Assembly: GCF_947581785.1 (NCBI RefSeq)
Contig: NZ_CANPVO010000025.1
Coordinates: 1-64,000, forward strand
Source: Candidatus Palauibacter polyketidifaciens
GTDB taxonomy: Bacteria > Gemmatimonadota > Gemmatimonadetes > Palauibacterales > Palauibacteraceae
Length of the DNA stretch: 64,000 bases
Direction of reading: 5' to 3'
Position 1 is the stretch's first letter; the number at the start of each line of letters is the position of its first letter. Shown piece after piece: positions 138 through 43,214 of the stretch. Made by a program: the position numbers and the translations under genes. The notes under the pieces are model-generated. The model saw nothing but the letters and a program-made list of their open reading frames with translations, was not told the origin of the DNA and ran no database searches.

Positions 138-2987
138 CTAAGTCCCCCCTTTGGCCTGCTCGGGGCGAAGCGGAGCAACCACAACCTGGTGAGCGTCGAA
201 TGCATCCAATCGGCGCAGCAGGACTGTGTCGCCTCGCGCGTCGAGCAACCGGTCCTCACCATCCATGCTCACCGTGAACAGCAGCCGCTCCCGGTCGATG
301 TCCCACACTCGCCACGTTACGCTATCCTGGCCGGGAAGCCGATAATCTCTCACCCAGAGTCTCGAATCGAAGTCCGTCAGCATCGCATCGATCGGGGGCG
401 CCACTTCGTTTGCCGGCCAGTCCGGCACAAGGGAGAGGAGTCGCTCCTTTACGTCCGACGGCGGGAACGGGAACCTGCCGTCCTCCGCGGCCTCAATGAG
501 CCATCCCCCTTGCTTCTGCCGCTGCGACGCCTCGGACTCTCGCCCCATCCGCACTTGGCCTGCGGACAGCCTGACGCCGGCGGGCATGGGAATACTGGCG
601 ACCGGCGCGCCGCTCCAGTCGAGTACCGAGATGGATCCCTGGTCAGTTTCGGCAACGACGAGACGGTCTGAGCTCGCCGCCTCCAATGTCCGGTGCCCAA
701 ACAACACGGGACGGTCGTGTCTCGTGTCGGAGTGCCGTTCGTTGCCTTGCGTCTCCGCGACCACCCGAACTCCGCCGTCGGCATCCACCGCCACATACCG
801 AGCTTGCCGCCAGTATCGACCTTTGGATTTCCGCACCATCGCACCGCCGTCTCTGTCGCGTAAGACCGTGCTGCCGTCTGGACGACGGGCTACCAGCCGC
901 GGTTGAAGGCTGTTGAGCGGAGCATCCAGGTAGCTTTGTGAGTGGCCGAAACCACCATCGTGGCCAATCGACACGATACGACCCCTGAGGAAGTCGCTAA
1001 CGATGACACCCTCCGACGTGCGAACCGCCCCCCCTATAAAGCCGAATTCCTCCGGCCCCCCTCCCTCGCGCCCCACCACTCGATGCTCCCCGGAGGCCAT
1101 GTCGACGATGTAGATCTCGGTGCGGTCCAACACAACGAGACCGCCGTCCGGCGTGAAGAAGCCGCCGCGGACGTCCAGCAGCCGCTCGGAAAGATCCCTG
1201 TGCTCCGACGAATCGAAGACCGGGTCGGTCGAGGGACGACGCGGGGCGCGCTGCCGCGTTGGGGCGGCTATCCGGTCGAGGAACGGTCCCACGTCCAGAA
1301 GCACGATGTCGTCGCGCTTCCGGAGTTCGCGGAGGAACGGCCCCTTGTGGCCCGCTCCGTAGGTGAGGAGGAAGCGGACTCCTTCCCCCCGGTGACGGTC
1401 CAGCCCGTCCTCGATGTACGCCAAGTGCGAGGCGTTGATCGCATCCCACCCCCCGGGACCCAGTTCCGCGTCGAACAGGCGGGCATACGTCCGCATGCGG
1501 ATGTCGTAGGCTTCGTCGTAGGCGTCGGTGTGGATCCAGCGCGGGTCGTCCGCCGCGCCCGCGGCGAGCGCTTCGGATGACGCCTCCGCGGCCGCCCGGT
1601 ATTCGGCCCATCCTTCGGCCCGGTCGGGGTCCCGCGAGTAGGCGTCGAGATACGCGGCCCGGAAGTCCGACATCGGTTCGGTCCAGCCCGCCGTGGGGAT
1701 GACGTCGAACTCCAGTTCGCGGGAGAGGGGGAAGAGTCCGTCCATGTACTCGGGGAAGCGGCGGACCCGCGGCTCCTCCACCATCCCCGTGGCTTCGAAC
1801 TCGGCCCATGCCCGGTCCCAGCGGTTGGGCGGGATCTCCGTCAGCCAGTAGTCCGGATCGATCTCACGCACCAGGTCTCTCACGACTTCCAGACTGAACA
1901 TCTCGCTGGTCTCGTGACCCGAGTGGATCACCCCGAGCACGACGACCTCGTTCAGCGTCGCCGCGCCCCCGGAGGGAGCAGGCGACGCCGGCGCGGCCGG
2001 CACCAGTTCAACGAGCGTCCCCGAGATCTCGTTCGCCACGAACACGCGCTCGCCGTCCGGGTGCACGCGGAGGACGATGGGTTGCTCGCCGACCTCCAGC
2101 CGCTGCACGACGGCCCGGGATTCGAGGTCGACGACGGAGACGGTGCTCCCGCCCGCGTTGTTGACCAGCGCGTACCGACCGTCTCCCGGCACCACGGCCG
2201 AGAACGGCCGGGGGCCGATGCCCTCCGAGACGCGGCCCGTGACCGCGAAGGACGCGGTGTTGATGAAGGCGACCTCGTCGGATCCGCCACAGGCGACAAT
2301 GTACGTGACCTGGTCGGGCGTGAGCGCGCCCCCCGGCGGGCCGGGACACACCTCGACCGTGGCGTCCAGCTCACCGTTCAGGAGGTCGATGACGCTGACC
2401 GATCCCGCGTCGAGGTTGGGGACGAAGGCGTGGGATCCGTCCCACATCACATCCGCGGGATATGGGCGATCGCCGGTGGCATGGAACCCCCGCGGCGCGC
2501 CCTCGCGGGTGTCCACCGTCCACAGCCGGTCGGAGAACTCGGTCGTGATCCAGGTCTCTCCGCGCACCGTCCCGGGCGTGAACAGCGACGGACCCGCCCC
2601 GACGCCCCACACGGCGCCAGTGACGATCCGGCCCTCGTCGTCGAGCCGTATGAGCGTCGAGTCCCGGAACTGGCTCACGAGCCAGCCGCCTTCGACGCGG
2701 ATGAGGTCGAGCGGCGTGTCCCCGGCCTCCCACCGCGCCACGACGGCGGACTCGGAGAGGTCCACGACCGCGATCCCGCCTTCGCCGCTTAAGGCGACCC
2801 AGGCGGTGTCGCCGTCCGGGCTGAACCGGATTCCGTGCGGACCCGCCCCCACGTCGATCGTCGCGCCGACCCGGAAAAGCCCGTCGGTGTCGACCGACCC
2901 ACGCGGCGATTCGCCGCAGGCCGCCGCGAGCGCCGCCGCGACGACTGCGCCCACGAGGGCTTGGTGCGAGCGTTCGAGTTGTCTCAT
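138..2987 (-). CDS. Large lipoprotein: YVTN-type propeller + TraB/EreA-like domain + second 6-bladed propeller
   Basis: About 949 aa. I chose the ATG at 2987 because AGGGAG lies just upstream and it places a lipoprotein signal at the N-terminus (hydrophobic run then LAAAC). Residues about 30-330 are YVTN-like beta-propeller repeats (phrases such as FSPDGDTAWVA and HPDGERVFVANE). Residues about 340-600 look like the TraB/GumN/EreA superfamily, with LGVIHSGHE near its start and TYGAGHK near its end. Residues about 620-949 are a 6-bladed propeller of the kind found in the gene at 44758-46077 (GREGGGPEEFG). The three-part fusion is unusual. The C-terminal third has visibly lower GC and less biased codons than the N-terminal part. 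Probably anchored in the envelope; substrate unknown. The propeller assignments are firmer than the middle domain. Confidence 0.75.
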   Translation of the reverse strand: MRQLERSHQALVGAVVAAALAAACGESPRGSVDTDGLFRVGATIDVGAGPHGIRFSPDGDTAWVALSGEGGIAVVDLSESAVVARWEAGDTPLDLIRVEGGWLVSQFRDSTLIRLDDEGRIVTGAVWGVGAGPSLFTPGTVRGETWITTEFSDRLWTVDTREGAPRGFHATGDRPYPADVMWDGSHAFVPNLDAGSVSVIDLLNGELDATVEVCPGPPGGALTPDQVTYIVACGGSDEVAFINTASFAVTGRVSEGIGPRPFSAVVPGDGRYALVNNAGGSTVSVVDLESRAVVQRLEVGEQPIVLRVHPDGERVFVANEISGTLVELVPAAPASPAPSGGAATLNEVVVLGVIHSGHETSEMFSLEVVRDLVREIDPDYWLTEIPPNRWDRAWAEFEATGMVEEPRVRRFPEYMDGLFPLSRELEFDVIPTAGWTEPMSDFRAAYLDAYSRDPDRAEGWAEYRAAAEASSEALAAGAADDPRWIHTDAYDEAYDIRMRTYARLFDAELGPGGWDAINASHLAYIEDGLDRHRGEGVRFLLTYGAGHKGPFLRELRKRDDIVLLDVGPFLDRIAAPTRQRAPRRPSTDPVFDSSEHRDLSERLLDVRGGFFTPDGGLVVLDRTEIYIVDMASGEHRVVGREGGGPEEFGFIGGAVRTSEGVIVSDFLRGRIVSIGHDGGFGHSQSYLDAPLNSLQPRLVARRPDGSTVLRDRDGGAMVRKSKGRYWRQARYVAVDADGGVRVVAETQGNERHSDTRHDRPVLFGHRTLEAASSDRLVVAETDQGSISVLDWSGAPVASIPMPAGVRLSAGQVRMGRESEASQRQKQGGWLIEAAEDGRFPFPPSDVKERLLSLVPDWPANEVAPPIDAMLTDFDSRLWVRDYRLPGQDSVTWRVWDIDRERLLFTVSMDGEDRLLDARGDTVLLRRLDAFDAHQVVVAPLRPEQAKGGT

Positions 2988-29322: not shown

Positions 29323-29664
29323 ATGGCTTCGGATCTCCACGAGCGCATCTGCGACGTCGTTGCCCGGATTCCCGCCGGTCGCGTCGCCACCTACGGGCAG
29401 GTCGCCCAACTCGCCGGACTCGGCGGACAGGCCCGTCTCGTGGGCTACGCGCTCTATGCCTCCGACCGGCCGCTCCCCTGGCACCGCGTGATCAACGCGC
29501 GCGGCGAGATCAGTCCCCGCGGCGACTCGTACTCCGAGATGATCCAGTACCAGTTGCTCGCGAACGAAGGGGTGGAGTTCGACAAGTGGGGACGAATCTC
29601 GCTCAAGCGCTTTCGCTGGAACGGGGAGATGCCGCCCCCCACCGGCTCCTCGCCTCCCTCCTGA
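29323..29664 (+). CDS. Alkyltransferase-like protein (Cys replaced by Trp)
   Basis: 113 aa, only the C-terminal MGMT DNA-binding domain. The winged-helix (RVATYGQVAQLAGLGGQARLVGYALY) and the site loop are intact, but the active-site PCHR is PWHR at residues 52-55. This is the hallmark of ATL proteins, which bind O6-alkylguanine without dealkylating it and pass the lesion to nucleotide excision repair. The tail beyond residue 100 is Pro/Ser-rich. Confidence 0.9.
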   Translation: MASDLHERICDVVARIPAGRVATYGQVAQLAGLGGQARLVGYALYASDRPLPWHRVINARGEISPRGDSYSEMIQYQLLANEGVEFDKWGRISLKRFRWNGEMPPPTGSSPPS

Positions 29665-29678
29665 TTCCGGAGCGCCTT

Positions 29679-31250
29679 ATGCGTACGTTTGCCGCCTTCC
29701 TCCTCGTCGCGCTGGCCGCCGTCGGCTTCGAGGCGCAGTTGCATGGGCAGGAGACCCGCGTCGAGACCGCCAGCGGGAACGTCGACGGCGTCCTCGTCGA
29801 CGGCATCCGCTCCTACAGGGGGATTCCGTTCGCGGCGCCGCCGGTGGGGGACCGGCGCTGGAAGCCGCCCCAGCGGGTCGAAGCGTGGGGGCGGCGGACG
29901 TTGCGCGCGCACAGCTTCGGCCCGGAGTGCATGCAGACTCCGTACGGCGCGGGCTCGTTTTTCGGAGGTCCCCCCGCCCCGACGGCGGAGGACTGCCTGT
30001 ACCTCAACGTCTGGACCGGGGCCGCCGACGCCTCCGAGCGGCGACCGGTCATGGTCTGGATCCACGGGGGCGCGCTCACGCGGGGGTCCGGCTCCACCGG
30101 CATCTACGACGGGACGGCGCTGGCGGAGAAGGGCGCCGTCGTCGTCACGATCAACTACCGGCTCGGACCGTTCGGCTACCTCGCACATCCGCTTCTCACG
30201 GCCGAGTCCGAACACGGATCGTCCGGCAACTACGGCGTCCTCGACCAAGTTGCCGCGCTCGAGTGGGTGCGGGACAACATCGCGGCCTTCGGCGGGGACC
30301 CGGACCGCGTGACGATCTTCGGCGAGTCGGCCGGCTCGTGGAGCGTGAACACGCTGATGGCGACGCCGCTGGCCGCGGGCCTCTTCCACCGCGCCATCGG
30401 ACAGAGCGGGGGGCGCTTCGGACCCATGATGCGCCTTTCGGAAGCGCCGGAGGGCGGACGCTCCGCCGAGGAGATCGGCGCGGCGCTCCTCGGGGCGCTC
30501 GGGGCGGAGACCCTGGAGGACATGCGGAAACTCTCCGCCGCGAGCGTGATGGCGGGACTCGACACGCCGGCCGGACGCGGCTTCAGGACGGCGGAGAACG
30601 TGGACGGCTGGGTGCTGCCGACGGACGTGTCGACGGCGTTCGCCGACGGAACGCACAACAACGTCCCGGTGCTCGTGGGGTTCAACGCGGATGAGATGAC
30701 CTCTCTCTCGTCCCCGAGATCGGTGCCCGAGACGCTCGAGGCGTGGCGCGAGTGGGTGGCGGGCCGCGTCGGGGACGATGCGGAGCGCTTCGACGTCGCC
30801 TACCCCGTGGAGGAGGAAGGCGAGATCTTCGACGCCTTCATGCGGAGCCGCGGCGACGCGCTGTTCGGCATCCAGATGCGGACGTGGGCGCGGGCGTCGG
30901 AAGCCGCCGGCGCGGGTGCGTGGCTCTACTACTTCACGCACGAGCCGCCGGGACCCGCGAAGGACTATCTCAAGTCGTACCACGCGGCGGAGATCGTGTA
31001 CGCCTTCGGCAACGTCGGTCCCGGCGAACGGGAAGCCGCGGACCGCCGGCTGGCGCAGACGATGTCCTCCTACTGGGTGAACTTCGCCGCGGACGGCGAC
31101 CCGAACGGTCCCGGACTGCCCCCGTGGCCGGCCTACACGCGCGACTCCGAGGCCCATCTCGTGCTGGGGCCCACGGTGGAGGCGGGAAGCGAACTCCGCG
31201 ACGTCCAGCTCGACTTCTGGGACCGGCGCCTCCGCGCCGGGACGCCGTGA
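29679..31250 (+). CDS. Secreted type B carboxylesterase
   Basis: 523 aa. The ATG at 29679 has GGAG upstream and begins a signal peptide cleaved near LHGQ. Type B carboxylesterase features: EDCLYLNVW, the oxyanion HGGAL, nucleophile Ser207 in GESAGS, a Glu/Asp in the GFNADEMTS region and the catalytic His in KSYHAAEIVYAFG. The family hydrolyses esters, including p-nitrobenzyl and aromatic esters; substrate unknown. It ends 40 bp before the selenoprotein gene. Confidence 0.9.
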   Translation: MRTFAAFLLVALAAVGFEAQLHGQETRVETASGNVDGVLVDGIRSYRGIPFAAPPVGDRRWKPPQRVEAWGRRTLRAHSFGPECMQTPYGAGSFFGGPPAPTAEDCLYLNVWTGAADASERRPVMVWIHGGALTRGSGSTGIYDGTALAEKGAVVVTINYRLGPFGYLAHPLLTAESEHGSSGNYGVLDQVAALEWVRDNIAAFGGDPDRVTIFGESAGSWSVNTLMATPLAAGLFHRAIGQSGGRFGPMMRLSEAPEGGRSAEEIGAALLGALGAETLEDMRKLSAASVMAGLDTPAGRGFRTAENVDGWVLPTDVSTAFADGTHNNVPVLVGFNADEMTSLSSPRSVPETLEAWREWVAGRVGDDAERFDVAYPVEEEGEIFDAFMRSRGDALFGIQMRTWARASEAAGAGAWLYYFTHEPPGPAKDYLKSYHAAEIVYAFGNVGPGEREAADRRLAQTMSSYWVNFAADGDPNGPGLPPWPAYTRDSEAHLVLGPTVEAGSELRDVQLDFWDRRLRAGTP

Positions 31251-31290: not shown

Positions 31291-31950
31291 GTGAGCGGGT
31301 CGCTCTGCCGGCGACTCGCCGAGATCCGCGCGCAGAAGGAGGCCGCCCGACCGGTAGCCGCCACGGCGGTCATGCACGCCGGCACGGAGGCACTGCGAAG
31401 TTCCGGCATCCTCGACCGAATCCCCGGCGTGGGCGACCGGGCGCCGCTCTTCGCCCGCCCGAGCGTGGCCGGCCCCACGGTCCGGCTGAAGTCGCTCCTG
31501 AAGCGCGGCCCCGTGGTGCTCAGCTTCTTCCGCGGCCGCTGGTGACCGTACTGCCGCGAAGAGCAGGTCGCTCTTCAGTCGGTTCTTCCGGAGATCGAAG
31601 CGAAGGGCGCGCGACTCGTCACGCTCTCTCCGCAGCTCGCCGAGTTCGCCCGCGGCTGGGTCGAGGAGGACGGCATCGAGTTCGACGTCCTGCTGGACCT
31701 CGGGCTGGGGGTCGCTCGTGACTACGGCCTGACGTTCCGGGTCGAGGGCGAACTGCGCGCGCTCTACCGCGACGGCCTCGGCATCGATCTCGCCCGCTTC
31801 AACGGCGACGAATCCTGGGAACTCCCGCTCACGTCCACCTTCGTCATCGACCGCTCGGGGACCATCGTGTACGCCTCCGCCGACCCCGACTACACCGTCC
31901 GGGCCGAGCCGGCCGACGTCGCCGCCGCCATCCCGCCCTCCAACTCATAG
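31291..31950 (+). CDS. Selenocysteine-containing peroxiredoxin-like protein (in-frame UGA, UxxC)
   Basis: About 219 aa when the TGA at 31543-31545 is read as selenocysteine. The frame before it (from GTG 31291, after GGGGAG; GTG 31276 is an alternative) ends LSFFRGRW, and the same frame after it continues PYCREEQVAL. Peroxiredoxin-like proteins have F-RG-WCPYC here, so the UGA sits on the peroxidatic cysteine and gives UPYC (Sec85, Cys88). The downstream part is full-length family sequence: ARLVTLSPQ, DVLLDLGLGVARDYGL, STFVIDRSGTIVYA, ending in TAG 31948-31950. A hairpin with an AGGTC loop follows the UGA at bacterial SECIS distance. Expected to be a thiol/selenol peroxidase or related redox enzyme. 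A standard gene caller would split it at the UGA. Confidence 0.88.
31558..31576 (+). promoter_or_regulatory. Bacterial SECIS-like hairpin after the UGA codon
   Basis: GAAGAGC (31558-31564) pairs perfectly with GCTCTTC (31570-31576) over the loop AGGTC. The stem starts 12 nt and the loop 19 nt after the UGA. The core GCAGGUC matches the upper stem-loop of the E. coli fdhF SECIS, including the GU in the loop that SelB contacts. The right arm uses GCT and CTT codons, atypical in this high-GC gene, as expected if base pairing is under selection. Confidence 0.82.
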
Positions 31951-32072: not shown

Positions 32073-32318
32073 GTGGCGAGTATCACGATTCGGAATCTGG
32101 GTGACGGGGTGAAACGCCGGCTTCGGATTAGAGCGGCGGAGCATAATCGTTCCATGGAAGAGGAAGCGCGGGTGATTCTCCGCGAGACAGTCGGCCAGGA
32201 AAAGATGCCCGCGAAGGGCCTGGGGACTGCGATCCATGAACTGTTCGCGCCCCTGGGTGGCGTGGAGCTCGAGATTCCCCCGCGCGAGCCGATGCGCGAA
32301 CCGCCACGGTTCGACTGA
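32073..32318 (+). CDS. FitA-like ribbon-helix-helix antitoxin
   Basis: 81 aa from GTG 32073 with GGTAGAG upstream. ASITIRNLGDGVKRRLRIRAAEHNRSMEEEARVILRE is the FitA-type ribbon-helix-helix; the C-terminal GLGTAIHELFAPLGGVELEIP is the toxin-wrapping peptide. A perfect 11-bp palindrome TGATGACATCA at 31995-32005 lies about 70 bp upstream and is a candidate operator. Next to the FitB-like toxin. Confidence 0.9.
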   Translation: MASITIRNLGDGVKRRLRIRAAEHNRSMEEEARVILRETVGQEKMPAKGLGTAIHELFAPLGGVELEIPPREPMREPPRFD

Positions 32319-32327
32319 GTCGCACCG

Positions 32328-32750
32328 ATGTTCATCCTCGACACGAATGTCGTCTCAGAGTTGATGCGCGGGGTCCCGCAGCCTGAAGTGCTCGCATGGG
32401 TCGACGCCCGCGCGAGGCGGGATCTCTTCGTCACTGCGATCACAGAGGCGGAGATCCGAACCGGCATCGCCATCCTGCCAGCCGGCAGGCGCCGACGGGA
32501 TCTGGCGCATGCAGCAGATCGGTTCTTTGCGGACTTCTTCACGAACCGCGTGCTGCCGTTCGACGGTTCCGCAGCGAGGGCCTACGCGGAGATCACGGCC
32601 GAGCGACGGGCCGCTGGACGCCCGATCAGCCAATTCGACTGTCAGATCGCGGCCGTCACTCGTTGCCGAGGCGCTGCGCTGGCGACGCGAAACGTGAGGG
32701 ATTTCAAGAGCGCCGGGATCGAAGTGCTGGATCCCTGGGCTGACGTCTGA
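32328..32750 (+). CDS. FitB/VapC-like PIN-domain toxin
   Basis: 140 aa. MFILDTNVVSELMR, VTAITEAEIRTGIAILPAGRRR and FDCQIAAVTRCRGAALATRNVRDF are the diagnostic PIN elements of the FitB branch. Begins 9 bp after the antitoxin and ends 7 bp before the CocE-like hydrolase gene on the same strand. Confidence 0.92.
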   Translation: MFILDTNVVSELMRGVPQPEVLAWVDARARRDLFVTAITEAEIRTGIAILPAGRRRRDLAHAADRFFADFFTNRVLPFDGSAARAYAEITAERRAAGRPISQFDCQIAAVTRCRGAALATRNVRDFKSAGIEVLDPWADV

Positions 32751-41496: not shown

Positions 41497-43214
41497 CGGT
41501 TCTCCAGTGGACGGCGACGCTCGTCGGACTTTCGTTCGCGCTCTACATCGGGATCGCGATCTGGTCGCGGGCCCACTCCACGAGCGAGTTCTACGTGGCG
41601 GGCAAGGGGGTCCATCCCCTGGCCAACGGGATGGCGACGGCGGCGGACTGGATGTCGGCCGCTTCCTTCATCTCGATGGCCGGGATCATCTCCTTCCTGG
41701 GGTACGACGGCTCGGTCTACCTGATGGGGTGGACGGGCGGGTACGTGCTCCTGGCGCTGCTGCTCGCTCCGTATCTGCGGAAGTTCGGCGCGTTCACCGT
41801 CCCCGACTTCGTGGGCGAGCGCTACTACTCCCAGACGGCGCGGGTCGTGGCCGTCATCTGCGCGATCTTCGTCTCCTTCACCTACGTGGCGGGCCAGATG
41901 CGCGGCGTGGGGATCGTGTTCAGCCGCTTCCTCGAGATCGACATTACGCTGGGCGTCGCCATCGGGATGGGGATCGTCTTCTTCTACGCGGTGCTCGGGG
42001 GGATGAAGGGGATCACCTACACGCAGGTCGCACAGTACTGCGTGCTCATCTTCGCGTACATGGTGCCCGCGATCTTCCTGTCGATGCTCGTCACGGGGAT
42101 CCCGATTCCGCAGATCGGGCTCGGGGCGGCGGATCAGGAGACGGGGACGTTCCTGCTCGACCGGCTGAACGGCCTGCACCAGGAGCTGGGCTTCACCGCC
42201 TACACGGACGGGACGAAATCGACGCTCGACGTGCTGGCGATCACGGCCGCGCTCATGGTGGGGACGGCGGGGCTGCCGCACGTCATCATCCGCTTCTACA
42301 CGGTGCCGAAGGTGAGGGACGCACGGATCAGCGTGGGCTGGGCGCTCGTGTTCATCGCGCTCCTCTACACGGCGGCGCCGGCGGTGGCGGTGTTCGCGAG
42401 GACGAACCTGCTCAACACGGTGACGGACCAGCCGTACGCGGAGATGCCGGAGTGGTTCACGAAGTGGGAGACGACGGGGTTGATCTCGTACGAGGACCAC
42501 AACGCGGACGGACTCATCCAGTACGTGGGACCGGAGGCGGTGGACGCGGCGGGCGCGCCCGTGCAGAACGAACTCACGATCGACCGCGACATCATGGTGC
42601 TCGCGAACCCGGAGATCGCGCGGCTGCCGAACTGGGTGGTGGGACTGGTCGCGGCGGGCGGGCTGGCCGCGGCGCTCTCGACGGCGGCCGGACTCCTGCT
42701 CGTACTCTCGGCGGCGATCAGCCACGACCTGCTCAAGCGCAACTGGCGGCCGGACATCAGCGAGCGGGGCGAACTCATCGCGGCGCGGTTGAGCGCCGGG
42801 TTCGCCGTCGTCGTGGCGGGTTACCTGGGGATGAATCCACCGGGCTTCGTAGCGGAGGTCGTCGCGTTCGCGTTCGGGCTCGCGGCGTCGTCGTTCTTCC
42901 CGGTCATCATCCTCGGCATCTTCTCGAAGCGGCTCAACCGGGAGGGGGCGATCGCGGGCATGCTGTGCGGAATCACGCTCACGGCCGCCTACATCGTCTA
43001 CTTCAAGTTCGTGAACCCGGCGGCGAACGTGGCGGAGAACTGGTGGTTCGGGATCTCGCCCGAGGGGATCGGGGCGGTGGGAATGACGGTGAACTTCGCC
43101 GTGGCGTCCGTCGTGTCCCGCTTCACGCCGCCGCCGCCGGCCGAGGCCCAGCGGCTGGTGGAGCGGATCCGGCTCCCGCGCGGGGCAGGCGAGGCACACG
43201 AAATCAGCGGCTGA
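41493..43214 (+). CDS. Large subunit of a sodium/solute symporter (ActP/VC_2705-like)
   Basis: 573 aa, about 13 membrane spans. Signatures: STSEFYVAGKGVHPLANGMATAADWMSAASFISMAG, VPDFVGERYYSQTARVVAVICAIFVSFTYVAGQM, and GLAAALSTAAGLLLVLSAAISHDLLKRN, all typical of the acetate permease-like SSS branch. Likely takes up a short organic acid such as acetate or pyruvate with Na+. Works with the DUF4212 subunit just upstream. Confidence 0.92.
   Translation: MTVLQWTATLVGLSFALYIGIAIWSRAHSTSEFYVAGKGVHPLANGMATAADWMSAASFISMAGIISFLGYDGSVYLMGWTGGYVLLALLLAPYLRKFGAFTVPDFVGERYYSQTARVVAVICAIFVSFTYVAGQMRGVGIVFSRFLEIDITLGVAIGMGIVFFYAVLGGMKGITYTQVAQYCVLIFAYMVPAIFLSMLVTGIPIPQIGLGAADQETGTFLLDRLNGLHQELGFTAYTDGTKSTLDVLAITAALMVGTAGLPHVIIRFYTVPKVRDARISVGWALVFIALLYTAAPAVAVFARTNLLNTVTDQPYAEMPEWFTKWETTGLISYEDHNADGLIQYVGPEAVDAAGAPVQNELTIDRDIMVLANPEIARLPNWVVGLVAAGGLAAALSTAAGLLLVLSAAISHDLLKRNWRPDISERGELIAARLSAGFAVVVAGYLGMNPPGFVAEVVAFAFGLAASSFFPVIILGIFSKRLNREGAIAGMLCGITLTAAYIVYFKFVNPAANVAENWWFGISPEGIGAVGMTVNFAVASVVSRFTPPPPAEAQRLVERIRLPRGAGEAHEISG

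Follow-up and report, generated by a model that had tools for sequence, protein, structure and literature searches.

A predicted UxxC-type peroxiredoxin-like selenoprotein with a conserved SECIS-like hairpin in Candidatus Palauibacter polyketidifaciens

The window analyzed here, a stretch of 64,000 nucleotides from Candidatus Palauibacter polyketidifaciens, carries on its plus strand a gene (31291..31950) for a peroxiredoxin-like (Prx-like; AhpC/TSA) protein of 219 amino acids, in which an in-frame UGA codon (31543..31545, residue 85) is very probably read as selenocysteine (Sec). The original prediction of a selenoprotein is strongly supported by the Sec machinery of the genome, by conservation of either UGA or a Cys codon at this site, and by a conserved hairpin. 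The host genome is a draft of 3.2 Mb in 52 contigs, with a completeness of 97.3%.

The gene and its neighborhood

The gene starts with GTG, at a position common to the gene in relatives, and ends with TAG (31948-31950). When its sole in-frame TGA is counted as a residue, residues 84-88 read WUPYC, and Cys88 (31552..31554, plus strand) is the partner of Sec85 within UPYC; the in-frame UGA, the resumption of the frame up to the TAG, and the UPYC site had all been described correctly from the letters. The 219-residue product matches the Pfam domain AhpC-TSA (PF00578) with 84.8 bits (cut-off, 26 bits), and no NCBIfam model reached its own cut-off with this product. The SelL-related redox proteins (NF040769), a Trx-fold redox family like the predicted protein, were rejected as an assignment at 31.1 bits, which is far under the cut-off of 120 bits. 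A signal peptide was not seen by eye, and the predicted product is probably cytosolic.

Codon use resembles that of coding sequence before and after the UGA. Both strands of the window hold 1293 TGA triplets, 374 of them with 30 or more open codons in either direction, and the TGA at 31543 ranks first among these 374 when the two flanks are scored for coding-like codon use (score, 0.26); the second rank is taken by a TGA at 43212 on the plus strand (score, 0.12). A gene finder that treats UGA only as a stop would divide or overlook the Prx-like gene, and no NCBIfam model matches above its cut-off, so that automatic annotation may miss it in these genomes.

The upstream neighbor is a carboxylesterase gene (29586..31250, plus strand; Pfam COesterase, 356 bits) with a TGA stop at 31248-31250, which is not part of the mechanism proposed below. 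A comparison of nine same-genus loci (up to 12.7 kb each) gave the same order in all nine: methyltransferase (PF01035), carboxylesterase, Prx-like gene, and X-Pro-peptidase-like hydrolase (PF02129). In the window, a pair of genes for a FitA-like RHH antitoxin and a PIN-domain protein (FitAB; 32073-32750) lies between the Prx-like gene and the hydrolase gene; this pair is present in two of the nine loci, and has therefore been either gained recently or lost repeatedly. The pair has the look of an insertion unrelated to the selenoprotein, and a functional link between the two was rejected, as the other seven same-genus loci showed no FitAB. The gene context as first described, i.e. next to a carboxylesterase and a FitAB pair, is thus right for this locus, but only the carboxylesterase is a constant neighbor (9/9) and FitAB is incidental.

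Conservation of the UGA, the hairpin and the Sec machinery

Fifteen further genomes of the genus were compared. TGA is found at the site in each of the 13 orthologues that reach it (64-91% identity), two of which also cover the TAG, as their terminal stop; of the remaining two genomes, one has an orthologue that runs off its contig ahead of the site and the other has no match. The TGA is also kept in other genera, at 44-46% identity in full-length homologues and at 38% in a partial one. The TGA and hairpin are identical in another assembly of this species (G285, locus L142). When 298 genomes of Gemmatimonadota were drawn, most proved to be without the gene family at E <= 1e-30, the threshold for membership; 37 genomes carry it, 36 with TGA at the site and one (G318) without a stop, which has WCPYC instead.

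A contig scan gave 202 loci, and the best 80 of these comprise 15 with UGA (U-forms) and 65 with Cys (C-forms). These 15 U-forms come from Gemmatimonad or Candidatus Palauibacter records, except for one record titled 'uncultured bacterium', and the C-forms among the best 80 come mainly from Acidobacteriota-type or proteobacterial records; 63 of the 65 C-forms have CxxC, and two (L074, L130) have CxxD. The peptide pattern used in the scan was written with Cys and may favor C-forms; for this reason, and because the best 80 of the 202 loci were evaluated, we do not claim that the Sec form is restricted to Gemmatimonadota. All 66 distinct non-U sequences have a Cys codon (TGC or TGT) at the site, so that the alignment of homologues suggested with the original prediction gave U in all but one of the 37 family-bearing genomes of Gemmatimonadota and Cys in the 66 non-U sequences. 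On a quick tree (103 rows, 37 of them U, some with long branches) the U-forms lie near a single clade, with three changes, and the sequence counts therefore overstate the number of independent events.

Downstream of the UGA lies a SECIS-like stem-loop (31558..31576, plus strand; GAAGAGC / AGGUC / GCUCUUC), with two exactly complementary arms of 7 bp (31558-31564 and 31570-31576) around the loop AGGTC; the small, G-containing apical loop is a feature that we take to be shared with the SECIS of E. coli fdhF. The stem begins 12 bases after the TGA, as originally described, and the loop 19 nt after it. The bacterial SECIS model, as given in the 2026 catalogue of selenoproteins, asks for a loop of 3-9 nt, a stem of 4-16 bp, a G in loop position 1 or 2, 16-37 nt from the UGA to the loop, and a minimum free energy of -7.5 kcal/mol or lower (PMC13188914); the window hairpin fits these constraints with a 5-nt loop, 7 bp, G as the second loop base, 19 nt, and -9.1 kcal/mol.

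Taken in isolation, the hairpin is ordinary for GC-rich DNA. Its RNA fold has z = -1.57, with 13 of 200 shuffles folding equally well; synonymous re-sampling gave a hairpin at least as stable in 347 of 20000 cases; and an equally stable downstream hairpin is present at 286 of 3337 codon positions in eight ORFs of the window. An Rfam search of 31400-31700 returned no SECIS match, and only a chance match to the SAH riboswitch on the opposite strand (E = 1). The significance of the hairpin hence lies in its conservation, not in its own strength. The core GAGCNGNNNGCTY, i.e. GAGC-NGNNN-GCTY at fixed distance, is present in all 34 distinct U-form 63-mers and nowhere in the 66 distinct C-form 63-mers. 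An isolated hairpin of -7.5 kcal/mol or lower is formed by 16 of the 18 U-forms and by none of the 65 C-forms of the first set, and by 14 of 29 loci of the phylum draw, several of which repeat earlier loci; in the other 15 it is weaker.

Covariation within the stem exceeds that of shuffled alignments, with a score of 0.202 (mean of the shuffles, 0.105) in an alignment of 19 rows, and of 0.107 (mean of the shuffles, 0.062) in one of 27 rows; in neither case did any of 500 shuffles score as high. Compensatory changes are seen in the outer pairs (A-U to C-G or U-G; G-C to C-G). The counts of double-change pairs and of extra pair types lie inside those of the shuffles (97 and 43 of 500, respectively, for 19 rows; 200 and 121 of 500 for 27 rows). 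In the larger alignment, 9 to 11 of the 27 rows leave the three outer pairs unpaired and retain the four-pair core; the lower stem is thus lost in the wider family.

The 3' arm begins with a rare Ala codon, GCT (31570..31572, plus strand), which is used at this place in 34 of 34 U-forms and in none of the 66 C-forms; at the other Ala codons in one set of U-form genes, GCT accounts for 35 of 442. A departure of GCT and CTT from the local codon bias had been pointed out before, and both are indeed rare in the eight window ORFs taken as genes (GCT, 3% of Ala codons; CTT, 7% of Leu codons). The GCT in the 3' arm may have been kept for RNA pairing. The comparison of UGA and Cys forms inside one enzyme family makes the recoding hairpin visible as a UGA-linked sequence signature.

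The genome of the window encodes the four components whose presence the original prediction had proposed to check: tRNA-Sec (79.9 bits; anticodon TCA by ARAGORN) and, by profile search, SelA (496 bits), SelB (370 bits) and SelD (375 bits). The genes for tRNA-Sec, SelB and SelA are carried on one contig (C14). The selD gene (contig C3:5640-6566; locus L049, 1501-2427, minus strand) has an in-frame TGA of its own, in GAGUACK, where U occupies what we take to be the usual catalytic place, which would make SelD a selenoprotein as well.

Across genomes, tRNA-Sec was found in 38 of 39 distinct genomes with a U-form, i.e. 18 of 18 in a first set, to which the host genome belongs, and 20 of 21 in a second, with two repeat genomes, recognized by identical tRNA coordinates, entered once. 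The one U-form genome in which it was not found, G285, is the other draft assembly of this species (160 contigs). Genomes with a C-form contained it in 19 of 49 cases (18 of 48, representing 48 of the 65 C-form loci, plus one of one). Most close relatives have tRNA-Sec in any case (54 of 60 genomes), and the co-occurrence is therefore informative only in relation to the C-form set. One genome (G043) has two tRNA-Sec candidates, of 75.3 and 52.6 bits (C24:48420 and C24:133248). Together, the sequence data point to an active Sec trait in Gemmatimonadota.

Three readings without Sec were weighed against these data. The UGA could be a genuine stop that leaves a truncated protein of 84 residues and a decaying remainder, and UGA does terminate genes here, as in the adjoining carboxylesterase. 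However, decay would bring other stops and frameshifts; instead, the frame stays open beyond the UGA and its protein sequence is conserved in U-forms, and stops elsewhere in the frames of relatives, which the original prediction had named as evidence against itself, are absent, the single UGA keeping its place down to 44% identity. A pseudogene is thereby in effect refuted, and we consider it very improbable. That the TGA is a sequencing or assembly error for TGC or TGT has a probability close to nil: beyond the fact that the window belongs to a 52-contig draft assembly, nothing was found in its favor, and the TGA recurs in the other assembly of the species, in all 13 same-genus orthologues that cover the site, and in all but one of the 37 genomes of the phylum draw that carry the family. 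Decoding of the UGA as Cys or Trp by a different rule would agree with the Cys found at this site in homologues; it is nevertheless highly improbable in view of the other genes that UGA terminates here, the full Sec machinery in the genome, and a hairpin core that is tied to the UGA and absent from the C-forms.

Probable position of Sec in the active site

Insertion of Sec at UGA 31543 thus remains the strongly preferred reading, and the position of this residue in the active site can be specified. A profile of 47 U- and C-forms aligned with 5epf, 2ywn and 2cx3 places residue 85 on Thr, Thr and Ser, respectively, and Cys88 on the conserved Cys of T/S-x-x-C, the residue that acts as peroxidatic Cys in peroxiredoxins. 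When aligned with ResA-type proteins by phmmer, residues 85 and 88 both fall on CxxC. From these peroxiredoxin and ResA-type alignments, Sec corresponds to the first Cys of a thioredoxin-like CxxC; the original assignment, Sec in place of the peroxidatic Cys, has to be corrected, since Sec85 aligns with Thr/Ser and it is Cys88 that aligns with the peroxidatic Cys. Cys88 is invariant in an alignment of 12 rows and conserved in at least 90% of the rows in the 47-row alignment. The peroxiredoxin motif PxxxT/SxxC is not preserved, with Arg81 at the place of Pro and Sec85 at that of Thr/Ser; WUPYC lies at the CxxC position of homologues, as in UxxC Prx-like proteins. The group cd02970 is presumably a CxxC Prx-like group and possibly the same structural subfamily as the window protein.

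An AlphaFold2 model of the protein (mean pLDDT, 95.9) has a helix (residues 86-97) that begins right after residue 85. Its structural matches are to peroxiredoxins, Bcp4 and AhpE among them, and in Foldseek to ResA as well; the best ten VIA rows have Z scores of 19.2-20.5 and rmsd values of 1.7-2.2 over 147-156 aligned residues, with Z about 20 for Bcp4 and AhpE. Residues 1-40, mostly helical, are hardly covered in the structure matches. That the nearest folds are Bcp/AhpE peroxiredoxins, together with the Pfam AhpC-TSA match, would suit a true peroxiredoxin with Sec for the peroxidatic Cys, a reading that is compatible with Sec insertion; the alignment of Sec with Thr/Ser of the peroxiredoxin motif and of Cys88 with the peroxidatic Cys, and Arg81 in place of the Pro of PxxxTxxC, argue against it and make it unlikely.

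We thus prefer a Prx-fold thiol/selenol oxidoreductase with Sec at the first-Cys place of CxxC. Judged from sequence and conservation, SelB with Sec-tRNA(UCA) would bind the stem-loop at 31558-31576, leading to insertion of Sec at UGA 31543. As motif and fold suggest, Sec85 at the N-terminus of the helix would act as the attacking selenol, Cys88 would resolve it through a Se-S bond, and a thioredoxin-type reductant would reopen this bond; candidate substrates are a hydroperoxide or a disulfide. We regard this chemistry of attack, resolution and reduction as somewhat probable. With Sec in the Thr slot and Cys88 in the peroxidatic slot, one helix turn would offer both a thioredoxin-like selenol and a peroxiredoxin-like thiol, and the protein might even be a self-resolving selenol peroxidase, a possibility that we consider doubtful; if true, such an enzyme would perhaps be important for oxidative life in these Gemmatimonadota lineages.

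Further Sec candidates and comparison with known systems

The same genome contains a second WUPYC gene (contig C48:11478-11497; locus L133, gene 1180-1881, plus strand), the 233-residue product of which matches AhpC-TSA with 103 bits and has, by eye, a lipoprotein-like N-terminus with LAGC; it is probably a second, exported Prx-like selenoprotein. Weak matches that resemble this gene, by similarity only and with one TGA each, were obtained in 13 of the 15 same-genus genomes. Three loci from other Gemmatimonadota genomes (L028, L031, L034) encode more distant Prx-like WUPYC proteins with TGA at the same place, and there seem to be several Sec-containing Prx-like proteins in Gemmatimonadota. Our literature search gave no description of such a Sec trait in Gemmatimonadota, with a SelD predicted to contain Sec and two Prx-like candidates in one genome.

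Our literature search, mostly at the level of titles and abstracts and leaving supplements aside, gave no account of Gemmatimonadota selenoproteins and, at the same level, no Gemmatimonadota host for a UxxC Prx-like selenoprotein. The main texts of a Palauibacterales paper and of two other Gemmatimonadota papers (PMC10469786, PMC11651109, PMC11596202) do not contain 'seleno', 'selenium', 'selenate' or 'peroxiredoxin'. Components of Sec synthesis and insertion are reported more widely: SelA and SelB are reported to co-occur in most sponge-symbiont bins of a set that spans various phyla and contains Gemmatimonadetes bins (PMC5649159), and selA, selB and selD are given for about half of the Challenger Deep MAGs (PMC8938466).

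UxxC redox selenoproteins are an established kind, as the original prediction held, and have been catalogued since 2005. The survey of that year gives 22 Prx-like sequences, of which 21 have UXXC and one has UXC, in contrast to the TXXU of Sec peroxiredoxins (PMC1088965); 'Prx-like 1' (pfam00578, UxxC) is given with 225 sequences in 2008 (PMC2398784); and Table 1 of the 2026 catalogue contains a Prx-like thiol:disulfide oxidoreductase (PF00578, UxxC/UxxU) and, as a further entry, a peroxiredoxin-like family protein (cd02970) with UxxS (PMC13188914), which differs from the UPYC of the window protein.

The kind, a UxxC Prx-like selenoprotein, is thus known, and new are this member and its lineage, for which no description was found. 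As described in those sources, the catalogued proteins share with the window gene the AhpC/TSA domain, the thioredoxin-like UxxC site and the existence of Cys homologues, a match that holds at the level of these descriptions and may or may not extend to the subfamily. The Sec peroxiredoxins share with it the Prx fold and PF00578; in their TxxU site, however, Sec is the peroxidatic residue, whereas in the window protein the predicted Sec occupies the Thr position and Cys88 the peroxidatic position.
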